From positions 1,550,001-1,614,000 of the forward strand of contig NZ_CP041692.1 of assembly GCF_007362775.1 (NCBI RefSeq): a DNA stretch of 64,000 nucleotides, read 5' to 3'. The notes beneath the pieces are model-generated. The model was given only the letters and a program-made list of their open reading frames with translations, made no database searches and was not told the origin of the DNA. The DNA comes from Microlunatus elymi. Its GTDB lineage: Bacteria > Actinomycetota > Actinomycetes > Propionibacteriales > Propionibacteriaceae. The number at the start of each line of letters is the position of its first letter. Position 1 is the stretch's first letter. Below, one piece after another: positions 5,094-17,493 of the stretch. The translations under genes and the position numbers were made by a program.

Positions 5094-6538
5094 CGCCGCT
5101 CGCCCGCCGCAGGAAGATCAACTTTGGACAGCGGATCGGCGACGTCCTCCAACGACTGACCCTCGGCGTTGACGCCGAGAAGCAGTGCGACCAGTCCGCC
5201 GATGATCATCAGCGCGGCGCCGATGAAGTAGCCGATCATCAACGGCGTACGGCTGGAGAAGTCACCCATCAACGCGCCGTAGATCACCGGCGCCATCGCC
5301 CCGGCAGCCTGGCCGATGCAGAAGAAGTACGAGATGGCCTGACCGCGGACCTCCAGCGGGAAGATCTCGCTCACCGTCAGGTAGGCCGACGAAGCGCCGG
5401 CGGAGGCGAAGAAGAACGACACGCACCAGAAGATCGTCTGGGTGGTCGCGGTGAGCAGATCCAGCTGGAACAGCACGGCCGACAGCGCCAGCACCAGACC
5501 CGAGATCAGATAGGTGCCGAAGATCATCTTCCGTCTGCCGACGGTGTCGAAGAAGTGCCCCAGCAACAGTGGGCCGAGCAGATTGCCGATCGCGAACGGG
5601 AAGAAGAAGTAGCCGACGTTCGCCTCGCTGATCCCGTAGAAGCCCTTCAACACGTTGCCCTGGGAGAAGAAGATCGCGTTGTAGAGAAAGGATTGCGTGA
5701 TCATCATGGTCAGGCCGAGAATCGTTCTTCGCGGGTACTTGACGAAGAAGATCCGGACCAGCTCCCTCAGCGCGACCCGCGGATAGTCGACTACCGCGAT
5801 CGCCTTGGACTCCGGTACCGGCTCCAGATCCACACCCTCGGATCGGACCTGTTCCTCGATCTCGTCCACGGTCCGGTTCGCCTCCTCGGCGTGACCGTGG
5901 GTCAGTAACCAGCGCGGACTCTCCGGGATGTGACGTCGCAGATAGATGATGATCAAGCCCAGCACCGGGCCGACGAAGAAGCCGATGCGCCAAGCCCAGT
6001 TGGGCGAGAACAGGTTCTGGGTGACGATGGTGGCGACCGCACCGAGGGCGGCACCGGCCCAGTAGGTGCCGTTGACCGCGATGTCGACCCGGCCGCGATA
6101 GCGGGACGGGATCAGCTCGTCGATCGCGGAGTTGATTGCGGTGTACTCGCCGCCTATGCCCAGGCCGGCAATGAAGCGGAACACCCACAACATCCACATG
6201 TCCAGCGACAGGCCGGCCAGGCCGCTGCCGGCCAGGTAGATCGCCAGGGTGAGGATAAACAGCTTCTTCCGGCCGATGCTGTCGGTCATCCGCCCGAACA
6301 CCAACGCGCCGACGATCTGCCCGACCAGGTAGACAGTCGCGGTGAAGCCCACCTGGGTGGCGTTCATCTTGAATTCCTGGGCGAAACCGCCGGCCGAGAC
6401 CAGCTGGATCTCCAGGCCGTCCAGGATCCAGGAGACGCCGAGTCCGACGACGACCGACCAGTGGAACTTGGTCCACGGCAGTCGATCCATCCGGGCGGGG
6501 ACCAGGCTGATCACGGGTTCTTGCGCTGTTGCTGTCAC
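5090..6538 (-). CDS. MFS transporter, sugar-porter/metabolite:H+ symporter type
   Basis: A twelve-helix major facilitator of 482 residues. GRMTDSIGRKK in the loop between helices 2 and 3 is the MFS signature. GLGIGGEYTAINSAIDELIPSRYRGR after helix 4 and GHFFDTVGRRK in the second half are typical of the family that includes SV2-like, sialate and aromatic-acid symporters. It starts at GTG 6538, preceded by GAGGGAGG. It is the first gene of an operon with the universal stress protein. The substrate cannot be told. The divergent PfkB kinase gene (start 6787) makes a carbohydrate plausible but unproven. Confidence 0.85.
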   Translation of the reverse strand: MTATAQEPVISLVPARMDRLPWTKFHWSVVVGLGVSWILDGLEIQLVSAGGFAQEFKMNATQVGFTATVYLVGQIVGALVFGRMTDSIGRKKLFILTLAIYLAGSGLAGLSLDMWMLWVFRFIAGLGIGGEYTAINSAIDELIPSRYRGRVDIAVNGTYWAGAALGAVATIVTQNLFSPNWAWRIGFFVGPVLGLIIIYLRRHIPESPRWLLTHGHAEEANRTVDEIEEQVRSEGVDLEPVPESKAIAVVDYPRVALRELVRIFFVKYPRRTILGLTMMITQSFLYNAIFFSQGNVLKGFYGISEANVGYFFFPFAIGNLLGPLLLGHFFDTVGRRKMIFGTYLISGLVLALSAVLFQLDLLTATTQTIFWCVSFFFASAGASSAYLTVSEIFPLEVRGQAISYFFCIGQAAGAMAPVIYGALMGDFSSRTPLMIGYFIGAALMIIGGLVALLLGVNAEGQSLEDVADPLSKVDLPAAGERR

Positions 6539-7843: not shown

Positions 7844-9256
7844 GTGACGCACGTGGTGATCATCGGAGGCGGTCCGGGCGGGTACGAGGCCGCACTGGTC
7901 GCGGCGCAACTCGGCGGCCGGGTCACCCTGATCGAGCGCGACGGACTCGGCGGCGCCAGCGTGCTCACCGACTGCGTACCCTCCAAGACGTTGATCGCCA
8001 CCGCCGAGTTGATGAGCGAGATCAACGACTCCGGCGAGCTCGGGCTGCGGTTCGGCCCCGCCGGAGATCCGTCCAGCACCGCTGCCGTCCGGGTTGACCT
8101 GGCCGCGGTCAACCAGCGGGTGCTCGGTCTGGCCCGGCGGCAGTCCGCCGACATCGACGAACGGCTGCGCCGCGAGGGCGTCGAGATCATCGCCGGCACC
8201 GGCCGGCTGGACGGTCCGCAGCGGGTGATCGCCGCGACCGCCTACGGCGAGATCGTGCTGGACGCCGACGTGGCGTTGCTGGCCACCGGCGCGCATCCGC
8301 GAGTGCTGCCCGACGCCGTACCCGATGGTGAACGGATCCTCACCTGGACTCAGCTGTACGGGCTGACTGAGCTTCCCGAGCGGCTGATCGTGGTCGGCTC
8401 CGGCGTGACCGGCGCCGAATTCGCCAGCGCCTACGACGCTCTCGGCGCCGAGGTGGTGCTGGTCTCGTCCCGGGACCGGGTGCTGCCCGGCGAGGACGCC
8501 GACGCCGCCCGAGTGCTGGAGGACGTGTTCAGCCGCCGCGGCCTGACCGTGATGGGCAAGTCCCGCGCGGCCGCGGTGCGCCGCGACGGTGATCGGGTCA
8601 CCGTCACCCTCACCGACGGTCGGGAGGTGACCGGATCGCACTGCCTGCTGGCGGTCGGCTCGATTCCCAACACCGACGGGCTGGGCCTGGAGACCGCCGG
8701 GGTGGAGACCGACGACCGCGGCAACATCCGGGTGGACAAGGTGTCCCGCACCACCGCGCGGTGGGTGTACGCGGCCGGGGACTGCACCGGAGTGCTGATG
8801 CTGGCCTCGGTGGCAGCCATGCAGGGCCGGATCGCGATGTGGCATTCGCTCGGTGATGCGGTCGGTCCGCTGGATCTTGCGTCGGTGTCGTCGAACGTGT
8901 TCACCGCCCCCGAGATCGCCACCGTCGGGGTCAGCCAGCAGCAGGTCGACGCCGGCGAGTTCGGCGCGGTGTCGGTGAAGCTGGCGCTGAAGGGCAACCC
9001 GAGGGCCAAGATGCAGGGCGTCCGGGACGGCTTCGTCAAGATCTTCTGCCTGCCGGTGACCGGGATCGTGGTCGGCGGCGTGGTTGTGGCCCCGAGGGCC
9101 AGCGAGTTGATCTTCCCACTGGCGGTCGCGGTGGCCCAGCGGATCACCGTTGATCAACTGGCACAGGACTTCACCGTCTACCCGTCCATCTCCGGTTCGC
9201 TGTCCGAGGCGGCCCGGCGGCTGCACGGTCATGATCAACTTCTGCGGAATCCGTGA
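7844..9256 (+). CDS. lpdA: LpdA-type NAD(P)H:quinone flavoprotein reductase (dihydrolipoamide dehydrogenase family)
   Basis: An FAD- and NAD(P)-dependent flavoprotein of about 470 residues. The FAD fold VVIIGGGPGGYEAALVA opens the protein. The NAD motif VVGSGVTGAEFASAY lies near residue 185, and the second FAD motif VYAAGDCTG near 305. The active-site segment reads GGASVLTDCVPSKTLI: the first of the two redox cysteines of true dihydrolipoamide dehydrogenases (normally GGTCLNxGCxPS) is Ser here. The same loss is known for M. tuberculosis LpdA (Rv3303c), which reduces quinones rather than disulphides. The start at GTG 7844 gives the same N-terminus as that protein; GTG 7826 is an alternative. 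It overlaps the sirtuin gene by 4 bases. Confidence 0.88.
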   Translation: MTHVVIIGGGPGGYEAALVAAQLGGRVTLIERDGLGGASVLTDCVPSKTLIATAELMSEINDSGELGLRFGPAGDPSSTAAVRVDLAAVNQRVLGLARRQSADIDERLRREGVEIIAGTGRLDGPQRVIAATAYGEIVLDADVALLATGAHPRVLPDAVPDGERILTWTQLYGLTELPERLIVVGSGVTGAEFASAYDALGAEVVLVSSRDRVLPGEDADAARVLEDVFSRRGLTVMGKSRAAAVRRDGDRVTVTLTDGREVTGSHCLLAVGSIPNTDGLGLETAGVETDDRGNIRVDKVSRTTARWVYAAGDCTGVLMLASVAAMQGRIAMWHSLGDAVGPLDLASVSSNVFTAPEIATVGVSQQQVDAGEFGAVSVKLALKGNPRAKMQGVRDGFVKIFCLPVTGIVVGGVVVAPRASELIFPLAVAVAQRITVDQLAQDFTVYPSISGSLSEAARRLHGHDQLLRNP

Positions 9257-10182
9257 TCATGGTGGTCCCCAGGCCCACCAATCTGCGGTTCGGATCGGAC
9301 TGGCAGCCGAGCGCTCCGGAAGTCCTGGCCCGTCCGCTCGGTGATCAACTCGACGCCGTGGCCCGGTTGCTGGACGGGCGGCGTTGGACCTGTCTGACCG
9401 GCGCCGGGATCTCCACCGACAGTGGGATCCCGGACTACCGCGGACCCGGGTCGCCGCGCGCGACGCCGATGATGTACGCCGAATTCGTCGGCGCCGAGGC
9501 CAACCGGAAACGCTACTGGGCCAGGAGTTTCCTGGGCTGGCAGCGGATGCGGGCCGCCCACCCCAATGCCGGTCATCGTGCCCTCGCCGAGCTGACGGCG
9601 TACGGCCTGAACGGCGTGATCACGCAGAATGTCGACGGCCTGCATCACGCTGCCGGCAGCGACCCGGTGATCGACCTGCACGGCCGGATCTCCCGGATCG
9701 TCTGTCTGGACTGCGGCCGGCTGAGTTCGCGGGCCGCCTACCAGGATCGCTTGCTGGCTTTGAATCCCGACGTCCGCGCCGAAGTTGATCTTGCCCATGC
9801 CGAGCTGCGGCCGGACGGTGACGCGGTGGTGGAGGACTGGAGCGGATTTCGGGTGGCGCCCTGTCTGAACTGCGGCGGAGTGCTGAAACCGGACGTGATC
9901 TTCTTCGGTGAATCGGTGCCCAAGGATCGGGTCGAGCAGTGCTACCGGCTGGTAGACGCCGGCGACGGGTTGCTGGTGGCCGGATCGTCGCTGGCGGTGA
10001 TGAGTGGACTGCGGTTCGTCCGGCACGACGCCAAACACGACAAGCCGGTGATCATCATCAACCGCGGCGCCACCCGCGGCGACGACCTGGCCACGATCAA
10101 GATCGACTCCGGCACCACCGAGGCACTGACCGCCCTCCACACCCGACTTGTCAGCCTCAGAGGTCGCTCTGGCGCTTCCTAG
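9253..10182 (+). CDS. cobB: NAD-dependent protein deacylase, sirtuin (class II/SIRT4-like)
   Basis: Removes acyl groups from lysines using NAD+. About 309 residues. The NAD-binding CLTGAGISTDSGIPDYRG lies near residue 47. TQNVDGLHHAAG and the general-base His in DLHGRISRIVCLDCG lie near 118-140. Zinc ligands are CLDC and the later CLNC pair, followed by LKPDVIFFGESVP and GSSLAVMSG. Cytoplasmic. It is co-transcribed with lpdA (ATGA overlap); acyl-CoA-metabolising enzymes elsewhere in the window are the kind of target such deacylases control, but that link is inference. Its last codons lie inside an 11-bp inverted repeat that separates it from hen1. Confidence 0.92.
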   Translation: MIMVVPRPTNLRFGSDWQPSAPEVLARPLGDQLDAVARLLDGRRWTCLTGAGISTDSGIPDYRGPGSPRATPMMYAEFVGAEANRKRYWARSFLGWQRMRAAHPNAGHRALAELTAYGLNGVITQNVDGLHHAAGSDPVIDLHGRISRIVCLDCGRLSSRAAYQDRLLALNPDVRAEVDLAHAELRPDGDAVVEDWSGFRVAPCLNCGGVLKPDVIFFGESVPKDRVEQCYRLVDAGDGLLVAGSSLAVMSGLRFVRHDAKHDKPVIIINRGATRGDDLATIKIDSGTTEALTALHTRLVSLRGRSGAS

Positions 10183-10194
10183 CGCTGACAAGTC
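10145..10194. terminator. Inverted repeat spanning the sirtuin stop codon
   Basis: GACTTGTCAGC (10145-10155) pairs perfectly with GCTGACAAGTC (10184-10194) over a 28-base loop that contains the sirtuin stop. It ends 17 bases before the ATG of the truncated hen1. The arm CTGACAAGTC recurs exactly at 16642-16651 in the hairpin that closes the pnkp gene, so the RNA-repair cassette is bracketed by related stem-loops. A terminator is likely; it may also mark the edge of the hen1 deletion. Confidence 0.5.
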
Positions 10195-10211
10195 CGTGGT
10201 TGGACGGCAGA

Positions 10212-11120
10212 ATGAGACATCTCTACGTCCTGCTGCCCGTGCTCGGTGGCCGCAAGCACTACTGGGTCGGTCCGGACGAGGTCGACAAACTGCTCCGAGC
10301 CGGCGCCGGTTGGTTGCCGGACCATCCGGAGCGGGAGTTGATCATGAACCGCTACCTCGCCTTCCGGCACGGCTACGTGCAGGACGCGACCGACCGGCTG
10401 CTGGGTGTCGATGTCGGTCACCTCCCCAAGGGTCCCGAGCCTGTCGAAGGACCGGTAACGCAACCACGGCGAACGCTGGCACAAGGACGACAAGGGGCCG
10501 TGCTGGAGTTGTTGATCAAGTCCGGTGCTCGCCGAGTAGTTGATCTTGGTTGCGGTGAGGGCACACTGTTGCTGCAGTTGGCGCGGGATGCGCAGTTCGT
10601 CGAGATCCTCGGTGCCGACGCCTCGCCGCGCGCGTTGGATCGGGCCGAACGCCGGCTGTCCGAGGCGCGGCTGAGTGAACGGCAGCGCGAGCGGATCAGG
10701 TTGCGTCAGTCCTCGGTGACCTATCGCGACCCCGAGTTGGCCGGCTTCGACGCGGTCGTGTTGATGGAGGTGATCGAGCATCTCGATCAAGATCGAATTC
10801 CCGACCTGGAACGCACCGTGTTCGGTGCGGCCCGGCCGAGGGCGGTGATCATCACCACGCCGAACCGCGACGCCAACACGGCATTCGCCGGGCTTGCGGA
10901 CGGCGGACTGCGCCACCGGGACCATCGCTTCGAGTGGAGTCGTACGGAGTTCGCCCGCTGGGCCGACGAAACCGCCGCGGCGTACGGCTACGACGCGAGT
11001 CTTCACGGCATCGACACCGACGGCCTGGCAGACCTGAACACCGCGCTCGGGGCGCCGACGCAGGCTGCCGTCTTCACCCGCCACGCATCGAGCAACTCGG
11101 CGGCGGGTGGTTCCCGATGA
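10212..11120 (+). CDS. hen1: N-terminally truncated bacterial Hen1 (RNA 3'-terminal ribose 2'-O-methyltransferase)
   Basis: Bacterial Hen1 methylates the 2'-OH at the 3' end of cleaved RNA before Pnkp seals it. Only about 302 residues are present; full-length homologues have about 460-480. The protein begins at RHLYVLLPVL, which in homologues is the end of the N-terminal domain. The catalytic half is complete: SAM motif DLGCGEG at 111-117, metal ligands in EVIEH (E186, E189, H190) and H238 in DHRFEW. From published work on Clostridium Hen1, the C-terminal half suffices for methylation, while the N-terminal half activates the Pnkp ligase. Residues 74-82 (GPEPVEGPV) are a copy of the dispersed repeat. 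Its stop overlaps the pnkp start (ATGA). Confidence 0.85.
   Translation: MRHLYVLLPVLGGRKHYWVGPDEVDKLLRAGAGWLPDHPERELIMNRYLAFRHGYVQDATDRLLGVDVGHLPKGPEPVEGPVTQPRRTLAQGRQGAVLELLIKSGARRVVDLGCGEGTLLLQLARDAQFVEILGADASPRALDRAERRLSEARLSERQRERIRLRQSSVTYRDPELAGFDAVVLMEVIEHLDQDRIPDLERTVFGAARPRAVIITTPNRDANTAFAGLADGGLRHRDHRFEWSRTEFARWADETAAAYGYDASLHGIDTDGLADLNTALGAPTQAAVFTRHASSNSAAGGSR
10431..10453. repeat. Dispersed CTTCGACAGGCTCGG-type element inside hen1
   Basis: GGTCCCGAGCCTGTCGAAGG and flanking bases, the reverse-complement orientation of the 30.5-kb repeat. It is read in frame as PEPVEGP in the Hen1 linker between the N-terminal remnant and the methyltransferase fold. Confidence 0.85.
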
Positions 11121-13135
11121 CCACCAGGATAGAGATCCCCGAGTTGTCGCTGGTGGTACTGATCGGCGTCTCCGGCTCGGGCAAGTCGACGTTTGCTCGT
11201 GATCATTTCGGTCCGTTCGAGACGATCTCCAGCGACTTCTGCCGGGGTCTGGTGTCCGGCGACGAGCACGATCAGACGGTCTCCGCCGACGCGTTCGACG
11301 TACTGGGCTACATCGCCGGCAAACGGCTGGCCGGCGGCCGGTTGACCGTGATCGACGCCACCAGCGTCACCGTTCAGGCTCGTCGTCAGTTGATCAAGCT
11401 GGCGCGTGATCATGATGTGTTGCCGACCGCGATCGTGCTGGACACACCGGTGGAGTTGGCGATGGAACGCAACCGAAGCCGACCCGATCGCGATTTCGGC
11501 GAACACGTGGTGCGGCGACAGCATGATCAACTTCGCAGATCGCTGAAGGGGCTGGCCAAGGAGGGTTTTCGGAAGGTTCACGTGCTCGGCCCGGAGCAGG
11601 CCGCCGACTGCGAGATCGTCCGAACCCGGCTGTTCAACGATCGGCGCGATGATCATGGTCCGTTCGACGTGATCGGCGACGTGCACGGCTGCCTGTCCGA
11701 GTTGCTGCTCCTGCTGGAGAAGCTCGACTACCGGATCGAACGCGATGATCATGGACGCGCCGTGGACGCGAGCCATCCGGACGGCCGGCGCGCGCTGTTC
11801 CTCGGCGACCTCGTCGATCGCGGCCCGGACACGGTCGGCGTGCTGCGGCTGGCGATGGGGATGACCGCGGCCGGGCACGCGCTGGCGATCACCGGCAACC
11901 ACGAGGAGAAGCTGATCCGGGCACTGTCCGGCCGGAAGGTGACCGCGAGCCACGGGCTGCAACAGACCCTTGATCAACTTGCAGCCGAACCGGAAGACTT
12001 CCGGCAGCAGGTACTGAGCTGGTGCCGGGAGCTGATCGCACACCTGGTGCTGGACGACGGCAAGCTCGTGGTAGCCCATGCCGGCCTCAAGGAATCCTTC
12101 CACGGCAGGGCTTCCGGCAGAGTGCGGGCCTTCGCGCTGTACGGCGACACCACCGGTGAGACCGACGAGTACGGTCTGCCGGTGCGGCTGCCGTGGGCTC
12201 AGCAGTATCGCGGTCAGGCGATGGTGCTCTACGGCCACACGCCGACGCCGGAGCTGACCTGGATCAACAACACGCTCTGCCTGGACACCGGCTGCGTGTT
12301 CGGCGGCAAGCTCAGCGCGCTGCGCTACCCGGAATCAGAGACCGTCCAGGTGCCGACCGAGAAAGTCTGGTACCAGCCGGCCAAGCCGTTCCTGGCCGAC
12401 GGCTCACCATCGGCTGCGAACGGCGCCGAGCGCGCTGGAGATGATCTTGAACTGTCCGACGTGCTGGGTCGCCGGGCGATCGAGACGAAGGTACATGGCC
12501 GAATCACCGTCTCCGAGGAGCAAGCAGCCGGCGCGCTGGAGGTGATCAGTCGGTTCGCGTTGCATCCGCGGTGGCTGAGTTACCTGCCGCCGACGATGGC
12601 GCCGGCGCCGGCGACCGGACGCGCAGATCACCTGGAGTATCCCGACACCGCGTTCACCACGTACGCCAAGGCCGGTGTCGAGCGGGTGATCTGCGAGGAG
12701 AAGCACATGGGCTCCCGCGCGGTGATCATGGTCTGCGCCGACGAGGATGCGGCCCGCCGCCGGTTCGGTTCCCAAGCCCACCGGACCGGCGTGATCCATA
12801 CCCGGACCGGCCGGGCGATGGCCGACGTCGAGCCGACCGAGGAACTGCTGAGCAAGATCAGAAAGGCGATCACGGCGGCCGGGATCTGGGACGAACTGGC
12901 GGCCGACTGGTTGCTGCTGGACGCGGAGCTGTTGCCGTGGTCGTTGAAGGCCGACGAGCTGCTGCAGGATCAGTACGCCGCCACCGCTGCCGCCGCGCGA
13001 ATGGCCCTCGGCATCACCGGTGATCAACTTCGGCTGGCCGCCGCGCGCGGACTCGACGTGGTCGAGCTGATCGGCAGGACCGAACAACGCCAACGGTCCA
13101 CGGAGGCCTTCGCGGCGGCGTACCGGCGCTATCAG
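11117..13135 (+). pseudogene. pnkp: 5' part of pnkp (kinase-phosphatase-ligase), interrupted by insertion sequences
   Basis: Bacterial Pnkp heals and seals broken RNA: 5'-kinase, 2',3'-phosphatase and 3' adenylyltransferase/ligase. These 673 codons include the P-loop GVSGSGKST (17-25), the metallophosphoesterase motifs GDVHGC, LGDLVDRGPDT, GNHEEK and HAGL (about 186-330), and the start of the ligase domain with the adenylated lysine K529 in EKHMGSR. The frame is cut after codon 673 (CAG, 13133-13135) by a 2,916-bp nested insertion. Read-through adds about 16 foreign codons to a stop at 13183. Ligase motifs IV and V lie beyond the insertion. A truncated protein could keep both end-healing activities but not sealing. 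Confidence 0.93.
13132..13135. repeat. Left target-site duplication of the IS1380 element (TCAG)
   Basis: TCAG here and TCAG at 16052-16055 flank the insertion exactly outside the terminal inverted repeats. Four to five bases is the normal duplication length for the IS1380 family. Deleting one copy plus everything between restores the pnkp reading frame. Confidence 0.9.
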
Positions 13136-13275
13136 CCTCGATCTTTCGTCTGGCTCGTTGTTGATCATGGTTGTAGTGGTTGAGGCTTCGATCGATGGTG
13201 TGGGCAGGGGTGGGCTCCGGCGCTGTGTCCGCCGGTTCTCCGTGGTCCTTGGTCGTTGGGGTCGGGGCTGGTTGG

Positions 13276-14664
13276 TCAGGCGGTGCTCAGGCTGGTCCAG
13301 GCGTGGTCGATGTAGTGGTTCCAGGGCCAGCCGCGTGGGAGTCGCAGGAGGTGTCGGCGGCTGGTGTGGATGATGCGTCCGGCCACGGCGAGGATGCGGA
13401 AGCGGAGTCGTTTGGGTTCCCACCGGCGGATGTCGGCGGTGGGTTCGAAGGCCAGGGTCTGGGTCCAGGCCAGGAGGTCGGCTGCCAGGGCGACGATCTC
13501 GACCCAGATCCGGTTCTGGTTGTAGCCGTGGAAGGGCAGGTTGCGTAGTCCGGTGTCTTTCAGGGCGCGGATCCGGTCTTCGCAGCGGGCGCGTTGGCGG
13601 TGTCGGACTTCCAGCACCGGGATGGTCCAGCCCGGGCCGCGGGTGTTGGTGGCAAAGCAGGTGACCCGCCAGCCGTTGTGATCGGTCAACCTCAGCTGGG
13701 CGCCGGGATGGGGCCGTTCCCGGCGGGCGATCACCCGCATCTGGGCCGGCCACTCGTCCTGGCCACGGGTCAGGGGTGGCATCCACCGGGTGAGTTCGGC
13801 GACCTCGGCACCCTCACGCCGATCACCGTTGCTGTCCAGGGCCGGCTGCCAGGCCTGGTCCGGGATCGTCTCGATCGCGGCCGCGACCCGGTTGCTGGCC
13901 TTGAACCCGACGCTGTATTCCAGACCGGCAGCGATGACGTGGTCGAGGAAGTCTTTGTTGCCTGGTCCGGAATCGGTCCGCACCAGCACCGCGTCGCGTT
14001 CACCGGGCGGGAGTTGAGCCAGGGCGTGGTCCAGGGTGTTGATGTGGTCGGCACTGTCCATCGCCGAGGCCCATCCCGGCCGCAGATCGATGGCCAGCGT
14101 GTCGGCGGTGCCGTGTTCGCCGTGATCGACGAACGCGCAGATCGGATGGAACCCGTAACCCCGCTTATAGGTCCGGCCGGCGCCTTGTTTGTCCGAATGC
14201 GCGGTCACCAACGTGGGATCGATATCGATGATCACCTGCCCGCCATCGCGCTGCCCGGACGGTCCCGACACCGGCCGCCGCCGGGCCCAGACCCGGCCCC
14301 GGGCCGTCGCGTGAACCGAGCGGATCGCGGTCACCACCTCATCGACATCGGCGGCCAGTGTTGTGAACAGTCGTGAGATTATCGGGTCCGAGGCCACCGG
14401 GCCGAACACCTCAGGCTGGGCCCGGACCGCGGCCACATCGGCCAGACAATCCCCACCCAGGGCGACCGCGACAGTCACATCGAGCAGGATCTTGCCCGGA
14501 TCATGCACGTAGCGATCGGCCCGCCACCGAGCCAACGCCCTCGACAAGGCCCGATCCAGACCGGCAGCCCGGATCGTCTCGGTCAACAACAACGCACCCG
14601 ACGACGAAATCAACGACTCACGCCTGGGATCAAGAACCAGTCCGCCACCTCGGTTACGCTTCAC
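13276..14664 (-). CDS. IS1380-family transposase
   Basis: A DDE transposase of about 462 residues from GTG 14664; an in-frame TTG at 14748 would add 28 residues, and GGGGAAAGG upstream favours the GTG. Catalytic acidic residues are visible as IDIDPTLVTAHSDKQGAG (first Asp), VLVRTDSGPGNKDF (second Asp) and CEDRIRALKDTGLRNLPF (Glu), the order and spacing of the IS1380 DDE_Tnp_1 domain. The protein is full length with no frameshift. Only the element's right terminal repeat is broken, so the enzyme could still act on other copies. No passenger genes. Confidence 0.93.
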   Translation of the reverse strand: MKRNRGGGLVLDPRRESLISSSGALLLTETIRAAGLDRALSRALARWRADRYVHDPGKILLDVTVAVALGGDCLADVAAVRAQPEVFGPVASDPIISRLFTTLAADVDEVVTAIRSVHATARGRVWARRRPVSGPSGQRDGGQVIIDIDPTLVTAHSDKQGAGRTYKRGYGFHPICAFVDHGEHGTADTLAIDLRPGWASAMDSADHINTLDHALAQLPPGERDAVLVRTDSGPGNKDFLDHVIAAGLEYSVGFKASNRVAAAIETIPDQAWQPALDSNGDRREGAEVAELTRWMPPLTRGQDEWPAQMRVIARRERPHPGAQLRLTDHNGWRVTCFATNTRGPGWTIPVLEVRHRQRARCEDRIRALKDTGLRNLPFHGYNQNRIWVEIVALAADLLAWTQTLAFEPTADIRRWEPKRLRFRILAVAGRIIHTSRRHLLRLPRGWPWNHYIDHAWTSLSTA

Positions 14665-14813
14665 CTGCGGAGTGCCTTTCCCCTTGGATGATTCACGACT
14701 CAGACAATCGCTAGTCTTCCAAGCAGGACAGGCACTTCCGTGTTTCAACCCACGGTCACAACACCAAGATCACGAAATATTGAGATTTCCCCGAAATCGT
14801 GAAGGGTTTCGGT

Positions 14814-15731
14814 TTAGGCCGCTGCCGGTTGGTCAGCGGTGATCATCTCGTACTCATCGGGCGGCAGCAAGGCTGCGCTGCTGTGCCGACGTTGGACGTT
14901 GCAGAACCGGTGGCACCAGGCCAGTACGACCTCCTTGGCCTGGGCCTTGGTTTCGAAGTGGTGGCGGGACAGGACCTCGTGTTCGAGGGTGGAGAAGAAC
15001 GACTCCGCTGCCGCGTTGTCGAAGCAGGAACCGACCCGACCCATCGACTGACGGATCCCGAGTTTCCCCTTACACAGCAGGGTAAACTCCTTCGCAGTGT
15101 AGGTCGAGCCGCGGTCGCTGTGGAAGATCACCCCCTCGATCTGCTGGCGTCCCCCGCGGACCGCCGCGGCGATCTTGATCGCAGCACAGGCCAGCCCCGC
15201 ATCGGGATGATCCCCGATCGGGCAGGCCAGCAGCTTGCGGGAGTACAAATCGATCACCGTGGCCATGTAGAGCTTGCCCTCATCGGTCGGGATCTCGGTG
15301 ATATCGCCACACCATTTCCGGTTCCGCGCCGGCGCGGCGAAGTCCCGCCGGACCAGGTCCGGGAACTTGGCCGCCTTGCGGTCTTGCTTGGTCAATCCCT
15401 TACGGTGTTTGCGTTTCCTGCCCTGCAGGCCTTGGCGGGCCATCGAGTCGGCGACCGTGTTGTGGCCCACCCTCCAGCCGGCATCGACCAGATCCCGGTG
15501 GATCCGCGGTGATCCGTAGGTACGACCGGACGCCTCAAACATGGCCAGCACCGCAGCATCCAGCTCGCGGCGACGCTGCTGTCGGTCGGTGACCGGGGAC
15601 TTGATCCACTTGTAGAACCAGCCGATCGACAGGCCGAGGATGGCGCAGCAGACCGCGATCGGGACGCGGTAGAAGGTCCTCTGGTCGGCGATGAAGCGTG
15701 CCACGCTCACCTCATCGCCTCCTTCACCCAC
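14814..15731 (-). CDS. IS3-family transposase OrfB (rve/DDE integrase domain)
   Basis: The catalytic part of an IS3 transposase, about 305 residues in its open frame. An HTH_21-like segment (SGRTYGSPRIHRDL) precedes the integrase core. The DDE residues are in WCGDITEIPT (Asp), IFHSDRGSTYT (Asp) and DNAAAESFFSTLEHE (Glu). It overlaps orfA in a different frame over 15707-15731, as expected for expression as an OrfAB fusion by frameshifting. I see no A-rich slippery run there, so a coupled internal start (a GTG just past the orfA stop) is the alternative. Intact. Confidence 0.92.
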   Translation of the reverse strand: MGEGGDEVSVARFIADQRTFYRVPIAVCCAILGLSIGWFYKWIKSPVTDRQQRRRELDAAVLAMFEASGRTYGSPRIHRDLVDAGWRVGHNTVADSMARQGLQGRKRKHRKGLTKQDRKAAKFPDLVRRDFAAPARNRKWCGDITEIPTDEGKLYMATVIDLYSRKLLACPIGDHPDAGLACAAIKIAAAVRGGRQQIEGVIFHSDRGSTYTAKEFTLLCKGKLGIRQSMGRVGSCFDNAAAESFFSTLEHEVLSRHHFETKAQAKEVVLAWCHRFCNVQRRHSSAALLPPDEYEMITADQPAAA

Positions 15732-15997
15732 AGGACCACGGAACGCTTGAGAACATCACGCTCCATCCGCAGCTCGGCGTTCTCCGAGCGGAGCCGCTTC
15801 AACTCGTCAAGATCATCTTTGGACAGGCCATTGACGCCTTCACGCTGTTCACGATCCCGGGCCACCCAGTTGCCCAGGGTGCCCTCGTTGACCCCCAGGT
15901 CACGGGCGACCTGCGCGATCGACTTGTTGGACTCGTGCACCAGCCGCACAGCGCCCTCGCGGAACTCCGCGTCGAACTTCCGTCGCTTCTCTGGCAT
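15707..15997 (-). CDS. IS3-family OrfA (helix-turn-helix)
   Basis: A 96-residue DNA-binding subunit. It has a typical HTH_Tnp_1 segment KFDAEFREGAVRLVHES then SIAQVARDLGVNEGTLGNWV, followed by the leucine-zipper-like helix DELKRLRSENAELRMERDVL. It starts at ATG 15997, about 45 bases inside the right terminal repeat. The last codons overlap orfB. Confidence 0.93.
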   Translation of the reverse strand: MPEKRRKFDAEFREGAVRLVHESNKSIAQVARDLGVNEGTLGNWVARDREQREGVNGLSKDDLDELKRLRSENAELRMERDVLKRSVVLWVKEAMR

Positions 15998-16055
15998 GAC
16001 AACTCCTCATAGTGCATGCCTTCACGAAAGTGGGGGATTTCCATATCGAGGTCAG

Positions 16056-16598
16056 TGGCCGACGGACGGTTGGCTGGGAGTCCAGCTTGCTCCGTTCCAA
16101 CTGTTGGCCGGCGGGGAGCGGACCTTCGAAGATCATGATCATGGTTGGCATCTCGGGTTCGCCGACCGGCTGGTGCAGGCCGACCCGGAACTGTTCCGGC
16201 GTACTCGCCGACTGATCGTCGACACCGGTTCGGCGCGGTCGATCGACGACGGCATCGCCTGGTGGACCGAGCTCACCGCACGGGGCGGCGAAGGCATGGT
16301 GGTCAAGCCGTACCCGAATCTGATCCGGAGCAAGGACGGGTTGGTGCAGCCGGGGTTGAAGGTCCGCGGTCGCGAATACCTGCGGTTGATCTACGGTCCG
16401 GACTACCTGGAGCCGGCGGAGTTGGCGCGGCTCAAGCAGCGCCGGTTGGGGCACAAGCAGTCCTTGGCCCTGCGGGAGTACGCACTGGGGCTGGAATCGC
16501 TGCGCAGACTCGTGACCGGGAAGCCGCTGTGGCGCATCCACGAGGCCGTCGTCGCCGTCCTCGCCCTGGAGTCGGACCCGGTCGACCCCCGTCTCTGA
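16056..16598 (+). pseudogene. pnkp: 3' part of pnkp (C-terminal ligase segment) cut off by the insertions
   Basis: The remaining 180 codons plus stop of Pnkp, in frame with the 5' fragment once the insertion and one TCAG are removed (the joined codons read Arg-Tyr-Gln-Trp-Pro-Thr). It contains WPTDGWLGVQLAPFQLLA, ligase motif IV EGMVVKP (about residue 752 of the restored protein), motif V in GLKVRGREYLR, and the family's C-terminal module ending ALESDPVDPRL. The restored length of 853 residues matches intact homologues. No stop or frameshift is present in either fragment, so the insertion is probably recent. This part has no start signal of its own. Confidence 0.93.
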
Positions 16599-16604
16599 CC
16601 AGAG

Positions 16605-16648
16605 TTGTCAGAAGGTGGTTGGGCTATAACCCAACCACCTTCTGACAA
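16605..16648. terminator. Perfect 19-bp bidirectional terminator hairpin
   Basis: TTGTCAGAAGGTGGTTGGG (16605-16623) is followed by the 6-base loop CTATAA (16624-16629) and its exact complement (16630-16648). It lies 6 bases after the pnkp stop and 18 bases before the stop of the convergent gene, so it can serve both. Confidence 0.9.
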
Positions 16649-16665
16649 GTCGGAGAGGGGTGCGG

Positions 16666-17493
16666 TCAGCCGCCGAAGATGTCGCCGAACATGTCCCCGA
16701 TGCCGTCGCCGATGTCGCCGATGCCGTCACCGATTCCGTCGAACATGTCGCCGATGCCCTCGCCGATCCCGCCGATACCCTCGCCCAGGCCGTAGAACAG
16801 GCCGCCCATCGAGTTCATCCCACCGAACAGCAGACCGCCGACCATCATCCCGGTCAGCATGTCCGAGCCGCGCCAGTTGTTGTAGTAGCCCTGGGCCCAT
16901 GGCGCGTAGGCCGGGCCACCCTCCCAGTACGGCACCCGCTGGGCGCCCATCTGGACGGTACGGATGTACGGATCGGCACCTGCCAGCACCCGTTCGGCGT
17001 CGGCGGCGCAGGCCGGGACGTCGCGGACCGCTCCGCCCGTGGGCGCCCACTGCACGTTCTGCACCGAGGGGCCGTGGGCCGGATTGAAGAAACACGGCGG
17101 CCGCTTCTGCGGCAACGGCTTCGCCTCCACCCGCGCCTTCACGCAGGCGATCGCGTACCGACCGTCCTCGAGGATCTCGGTGACGTGCCGGATCTCCTCC
17201 GGCTTCTTCACTGCGAACAGCGAGGTCTTGGAATCCTCGTACGCATCGAGCGCCCGTTGGTAGTCCTGCTGCATCGCCTCGTCGAGCGGATGGCCGGCGA
17301 CGTCGGTGTCCAGCCGCTGCAACTCCTCGCCGAACTTGGTCACGTCCTCGTCCGCCGCCCGCTTGGAGGTGGCCAGTTGGCTCTCCAACTCGGCCCGAGC
17401 CTCGGCCTCGCGCCGCAGCGTCGCCTTCCGGCTGTACAACAGGGCTCCGCCGCCGACGACGGCAAGGATCAGCAGCAGGACGATTGGTTCCAT
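16666..17493 (-). CDS. Membrane-anchored coiled-coil protein with glycine-rich C-terminal repeats
   Basis: 275 residues, family not recognised. An N-terminal membrane helix (MEPIVLLLILAVVGGGALLY) is followed by a charged probable coiled coil (about 25-100, RREAEARAELESQL onward). A middle domain contains CFFNPAHGPSVQNVQW and two further cysteines (residues about 120-170). A Gly/Met-rich segment follows (MLTGMMVGGLLFGGMNSMGG), then a run of short repeats GIGEGIGD, GIGDGIGD, GIGDMFGD to the end. The repeats could form an amyloid-like or membrane-inserting tail. The CFFNPAHGPS block resembles a conserved but unnamed actinobacterial domain. It starts at ATG 17493 and is a single-gene transcription unit closed by the shared hairpin. 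Confidence 0.75.
   Translation of the reverse strand: MEPIVLLLILAVVGGGALLYSRKATLRREAEARAELESQLATSKRAADEDVTKFGEELQRLDTDVAGHPLDEAMQQDYQRALDAYEDSKTSLFAVKKPEEIRHVTEILEDGRYAIACVKARVEAKPLPQKRPPCFFNPAHGPSVQNVQWAPTGGAVRDVPACAADAERVLAGADPYIRTVQMGAQRVPYWEGGPAYAPWAQGYYNNWRGSDMLTGMMVGGLLFGGMNSMGGLFYGLGEGIGGIGEGIGDMFDGIGDGIGDIGDGIGDMFGDIFGG

Follow-up and report, generated by a model that had tools for sequence, protein, structure and literature searches.

A Pnkp-Hen1 RNA-repair cassette in Microlunatus elymi that has very probably been inactivated recently

Introduction

Pnkp and Hen1 form a bacterial RNA repair complex in which the N-terminal domain of Hen1 is reported to switch on the Pnkp ligase by locking the ligase insertion domain (PMC4411300). 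The locus that we describe here resembles that complex (PMC4411300) in its adjoining hen1 and pnkp genes, its kinase-phosphatase-ligase layout and its methyltransferase domain; it differs in that the N-terminal domain of Hen1 is mostly missing and the ligase domain is interrupted, such that no sealing would be expected. It can also be likened to the Pnkp1-Rnl-Hen1 complex of Capnocytophaga gingivalis, where the ligase is reported to be under the control of the Hen1 N-terminal domain (PMC4411300); in that complex, however, Rnl is a whole, separate protein, whereas here a single ligase domain has been halved by an insertion sequence (IS). In other respects the locus looks like any gene disrupted by IS1380 or IS3 elements, with matching ends, short target duplications and further copies in the genome, and with no notable difference. 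A full-text literature search, judged by title, found no published report of a broken hen1-pnkp pair.

Results

The genome of M. elymi is a single contig of 5,121,194 bases. We analysed bases 1,550,001-1,614,000, a stretch of 64,000 nucleotides referred to here as the window, and coordinates below are positions within it. The hen1 and pnkp genes run in the same direction, downstream of genes for a sugar-kinase-like protein and a dihydrolipoamide-dehydrogenase-like protein, both labelled from the look of their sequence, and of a sirtuin gene, which was scanned with profiles. On the other side, a minus-strand gene (16666-17493) is convergent with the end of pnkp, and a palindrome lies between the two. 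No Rfam family matched at its gathering score between positions 9000 and 18000. The principal features of the cassette are:

9253..10182, plus strand: sirtuin (Sir2-family) gene, upstream of hen1 (Pfam SIR2, E 3.8e-36)
10147..10192, no strand assigned: 46-bp palindrome at the 5' junction of hen1 (RNA fold of 10142-10197, -28.9 kcal/mol, z -5.47)
10200..11120, plus strand: hen1 remnant, comprising the last ~65 positions of Hen1_L and the whole methyltransferase domain (profile and structure-chain matches)
11117..13135, plus strand: pnkp 5' piece, comprising the kinase, the phosphatase and the first half of the ligase domain (profiles, structure chains, motifs)
16056..16598, plus strand: pnkp 3' piece, carrying the rest of the ligase domain (PNKP_ligase 203-377; 202-377 in a second search)
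16604..16649, no strand assigned: second palindrome of the same family, 3' of the pnkp 3' piece (RNA fold of 16599-16654, -41.7 kcal/mol, z -9.63)

An earlier note on this DNA had proposed that hen1 begins near the end of its usual N-terminal domain, and this is what we find. The hen1 frame starts at a TTG (10200) or an ATG (10212) and stops at 11118-11120, overlapping the pnkp start at 11117. Its match to the Pfam Hen1_L profile runs only from position 176 or 179 to position 241 of 242, and its match to the solved chain 4dqz, which we infer from the part of the Hen1 chain that matches to be the Hen1 N-terminal domain, covers only residues 179-228 of 230. Thus, the N-terminal ligase-activating domain of a Pnkp-Hen1 cassette is represented in this hen1 by no more than Hen1_L 176-241 of 242. 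The Hen1 methyltransferase domain is present at residues 86-297 (3jwg, E 3e-54), with the motifs DLGCGEG (10542-), MEVIEHLD (10764-) and RHRDHRFEW (10911-).

In pnkp, both the kinase and the phosphatase were recovered (Pfam AAA_33 and Metallophos; 4gp6, E 1.1e-54; 4j6o, E 3e-101), with the P-loop GVSGSGKS at 11165-11188 and the phosphatase motifs GDVHGC (11675-), GDLVDRGPDT (11804-) and GNHEEK (11894-). The ligase domain is not continuous. It is split between profile positions 202 and 203 by a 2916-bp insertion, with positions 2-202 of PNKP_ligase in the 5' piece and positions 203-377 in the 3' piece; EEKHMGSR (12695-) and LLLDAELLPW (12911-) lie in the former, and GGEGMVVKP (16284-) and GLKVRGREYLR (16353-) in the latter. 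From the ATG at 11117, the pnkp frame runs for 673 codons to position 13135, continues for 15 codons into the insertion, and ends with a stop codon whose last base is 13183. We take the kinase, phosphatase, methyltransferase and ligase motifs listed here to be the catalytic motifs. On that assumption, the earlier view that the methyltransferase, kinase and phosphatase active sites look complete holds, with each domain matched and all of its motifs present, as does the view that the sealing domain of Pnkp and the activating region of Hen1 are broken or missing.

The insertion consists of two elements, one inside the other:

13132..13135, plus strand: left 4-bp target duplication TCAG, matching the right copy
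13136..16051, minus strand: IS1380-type element in pnkp, enlarged by a nested element (DDE_Tnp_1_4, E 1.3e-68; matching ends; 4-bp duplication)
14781..16043, minus strand: IS3-type element nested in the IS1380-type element (1263 bp; Pfam HTH_Tnp_1, HTH_21 and rve; matching ends)
16052..16055, plus strand: right 4-bp target duplication TCAG, matching the left copy

The transposase frame of the IS1380-type element (13276-14748, minus strand) matches PF13701, which we take to mark the IS1380 family; the IS3 assignment follows the general pattern of that family, and both family names, based on Pfam matches, presumably hold. The genome contains three further full copies of the IS1380-type element, each of 1650 bp, each with one mismatch in 1645 positions relative to the copy in pnkp, and each flanked by a 4-bp repeat, which is CTAG in all three. 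The same search also returned shorter matches of 69-89% identity. The single difference in 1645 positions suggests that the IS1380-type element arrived in pnkp recently. The IS3-type element has two overlapping frames (15707-15997, HTH; 14814-15731, rve) and is flanked by a 3-bp duplication, TAT, at 14778-14780 and 16044-16046. Six further copies, each with its own 3-bp duplication, are present in the genome at ~94% identity, and the pnkp-resident copy, being ~6% different from all six, may have arrived separately. Since the IS3-type element lies inside the IS1380-type element, it came later. Read in this way, pnkp was hit once, and the IS1380-type element was subsequently hit by the IS3-type element; hence, the earlier description of pnkp as split by insertions is right about the split but not about the plural.

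Assemblies often go wrong at repeated IS elements, which raises the question of whether the true chromosome has an intact cassette. We regard such an artefact as very improbable: the genome is a single contig, both insertions are flanked by target duplications of their own, neither IS copy is identical to its counterparts elsewhere in the genome (three for the IS1380-type element, six for the IS3-type element), and no IS is present at the junction that forms the hen1 lesion. Alternatively, some cells might lose the insertion, so that part of the population has an uninterrupted pnkp. With its target duplications intact, loss of the insertion is formally possible; however, such loss would not supply the N-terminal domain of Hen1, and the nested second element would be expected to lower its likelihood, and we attach a very low probability to a cassette of this kind. 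Profile searches of the whole genome detected no second match to Hen1_L or PNKP_ligase, and hence no intact copy elsewhere of the kind that, according to the earlier note, would remove the interest of the locus. Our search for a stand-in RNA ligase covered the RtcB family and gave no match in this genome; the positive control matched in 9 of 14 genomes.

A comparison with intact homologues, as had been recommended, was possible with a genome of the same genus (G100, locus L129), which has the same neighbours on both sides, a hen1 of 473 aa and pnkp as one uninterrupted frame; an additional gene separates pnkp from the convergent gene there. In L129, 539 bp lie between the end of sirtuin homology (6195) and the point where hen1 homology resumes (6735); the corresponding gap in the window is ~50 bp (10150-10199), as against ~540 bp in L129, and consists mostly of the 46-bp palindrome. 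Relative to the L129 layout, the last few sirtuin codons, the spacer and approximately the first 174 hen1 codons are absent, and the palindrome is found instead. Homology of the sirtuin to its L129 counterpart stops at residue 299 of 309; the last ~10 codons and the stop codon TAG (10180-10182) fall within the palindrome, which gives the sirtuin a new end and stop codon. There may be a second small deletion just past the hen1 junction, where, by eye, LDGR is common to both loci and the next few codons differ while the frame is kept. A promoter-like match at 10185-10213 overlaps the right end of the palindrome (one found versus 0.5 expected), so the hen1 remnant may still be transcribed.

The palindrome belongs to a family. 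There are 27 copies with exact 8-base arms in this genome and 73 with 7-base arms (TTGTCAG-N30-CTGACAA). With the latter pattern, counts for G108, G103 and G102 are 267, 34 and 23, and each of the other 16 of the 20 genomes of the genus has 0-8; the reversed pattern, used as a control, gave at most one per genome. Of the 73 copies, 20 were hand-picked from early in the list; with genes crudely predicted, 19 of these 20 lie within 30 bp of a predicted stop codon, on either side, and one is inside a predicted frame. The inner arms of 22 palindromes are variable yet complementary at many positions, with some inner positions pairing in only about half. We looked for a Y1 transposase that might move the palindromes and found no match in the 20 genomes. 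Our guess is that the palindromes spread as mobile units, one of which caused the hen1 deletion.

We also considered the palindrome as a U-tract terminator; a consensus scan found no such terminator in 9900-16800, and the junction palindrome is without a T-run. As a separate guess, the junction palindrome may act as a terminator between sirtuin and hen1.

With one genome per species as our sample, Hen1_L was detected in 6 of the 20 genomes of the genus, including that of M. elymi. Among the five others, only G100 has the pair beside this sirtuin, and in the remaining four none of the neighbours that we searched for was present in the 16-kb region around Hen1_L. In two further genomes, G101 and G092, the neighbourhood is the same but the hen1-pnkp pair is missing. 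A tree of the flanking proteins, in which the outgroup rows cover only 507 to 978 of 2480 columns, places M. elymi with G100 and G101 with G092, with a support of only 66 on the branch separating M. elymi and G100. Both loss of the pair in G101 and G092, and gain of the pair in an ancestor of M. elymi and G100, are possible.

A Hen1 without most of its N-terminal domain is rare in the samples compared. In a family-level sample, Hen1_L was found in 37 of 198 genomes and was full length, defined for this sample as a match from position 9 or earlier to position 237 or later, in 29 of these 37. The eight partial matches comprise one at a contig start (G193), one within 106 bases of a contig start (G177), four that are split or gapped (G175, G003, G040 and G111), one that ends at position 213 (G187), and that of M. 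elymi; only M. elymi and G193 lack the first two thirds. An order-level sample, which overlaps the family sample, gave Hen1_L in 113 of 391 genomes, full length in 108, with partial matches in M. elymi, G226 (split over two frames), G040 (gapped within one frame), G432 and G302. In the last two (G432:C7:61852-61962 and G302:C2:1137917-1138021), the match is confined to the first 35-37 positions of Hen1_L, and these may be hen1 remnants.

We then used a model of the N-terminal domain, built from 16 of the 85 loci tested, on the best 80 of 440 titled loci together with five loci of the genus. The domain was present in 84 of the 85, and the one miss (L056) is cut by a contig end. In 73 of these 84 loci, a single stretch spans 85% or more of the model, and in the remaining 11 the match is shorter or comes in two stretches; 9 of the 11 have the same gap within one open frame (eight titled Rhodococcus and one Rhodococcoides). 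At L055, the Hen1 N-terminal domain and methyltransferase part are in different frames, and at L020, the frame of hen1 is already closed at 5771, ~230 bp short of the pnkp match; each of these may be a broken gene or a sequencing error.

The remnants themselves show little sign of erosion. At invariant columns, defined as those on which at least 97% of the other sequences agree, M. elymi deviates at 3 of 60 positions in Hen1 (one of them at the junction), 4 of 197 in the Pnkp 5' piece and 0 of 47 in the Pnkp 3' piece. The intact L129 deviates at 6 of 63 (Hen1) and 6 of 245 (Pnkp), and the other rows have medians of 0 and 1, respectively; the Hen1 deviations of M. elymi thus exceed the median, equal those of L078 and are fewer than those of L129. 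Branch lengths for M. elymi and L129 are 0.433 versus 0.551 (Hen1), 0.192 versus 0.221 (Pnkp 5' piece) and 0.278 versus 0.190 (Pnkp 3' piece), indicating no general speed-up, with the exception of the 3' piece, whose branch is longer than that of its sister. The three pieces have pairwise dN/dS values of 0.20-0.27 relative to L129, as compared to 0.15-0.44 for seven neighbouring genes. Hence, we detected no clear signature of relaxed selection in invariant columns, branch lengths or dN/dS, with the proviso that the synonymous distance to this nearest relative compared is large (0.46 to 1.18), so that a short, recent period free of selection would be invisible. The synonymous distance to L129 reaches 1.18 in hen1 and 0.95 in the pnkp 3' piece, versus 0.46-0.69 for the neighbours, possibly reflecting a different history. 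The third-position GC of hen1, 0.79, is the lowest of the ten pieces compared.

Discussion

We propose, with high confidence, that the locus is a Pnkp-Hen1 cassette for RNA repair whose inactivation is recent, with sealing lost and loss of the cassette ongoing. An IS1380-type element has inserted into the ligase domain of pnkp, followed by insertion of an IS3-type element into the first; separately, the sirtuin gene has lost its last few codons and hen1 its front part, along with the spacer between them, and the palindrome now stands in their place. Either of the two genes may have been damaged first. No active RNA ligase would be made, since EGMVVKP and KVRGREYLR lie in a second half of the ligase that is severed from the first, and the activating domain of Hen1 is mostly gone; RNA sealing by this locus is very unlikely. 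At most, the locus could heal or methylate broken RNA ends, not rejoin them, and the rest of the cassette would be expected to disappear in time. The suggestion that the cassette is decaying is therefore borne out: both lesions hit sealing, an intact syntenic copy exists in one genome of the same genus, and the pair is absent from the same neighbourhood in two others. The lesions are probably recent, judging from the little erosion of the remnants and the near-identity of the IS1380-type copies.

That the remnants look constrained rather than eroded fits recent loss, yet it leaves room for a retained partial function. The earlier note had also raised a switch to an end-healing-only role, in which broken RNA ends would be treated, for example marked or protected, but not sealed, by the truncated Pnkp with its kinase and phosphatase and by the methyltransferase domain of Hen1. 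Indeed, the kinase P-loop and the phosphatase and methyltransferase motifs are present, almost all invariant positions are kept, and the parts can fold alone, given that there are solved chains of the methyltransferase (3jwg, 3jwh and others), the kinase (4gp6) and the phosphatase (4j6o) on their own. However, none of the 84 other loci in which the Hen1 region can be seen, drawn from the best 80 of 440 titled loci and the five genus loci, provides a second example, as all of them keep the N-terminal domain; the lesions look so recent that constraint cannot be distinguished from inertia, nor would a new role have had time to leave a trace; and hen1 has lost its native start region and sits behind a strong hairpin predicted at -28.9 kcal/mol. 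Moreover, the severed ligase half has also been kept, with 0 of 47 invariant positions changed, pointing to little elapsed time rather than to selection for healing only, although its branch is longer than that of its sister. End healing and methylation by the remnants are thus possible but unsupported, and we consider an end-healing-only system improbable. The same low likelihood applies to a specific form of this idea, in which the remnants would be expressed, and would heal and 2'-O-methylate broken RNA ends as a dead-end mark, turning a repair system into an end-marking one.

Recent inactivation of the cassette looks like ordinary gene loss rather than a new system, and we see the value of the locus as that of a natural loss-of-function case. 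The palindromes at gene ends, which have multiplied in a few species of this genus, may offer a more interesting lead than loss of the cassette, and may deserve a study of their own. The locus illustrates a stage in the disappearance of an RNA-repair cassette whose presence in this group is patchy, with Hen1_L in 113 of 391 genomes of the order and 6 of 20 of the genus, and for which an intact syntenic counterpart is available for comparison.
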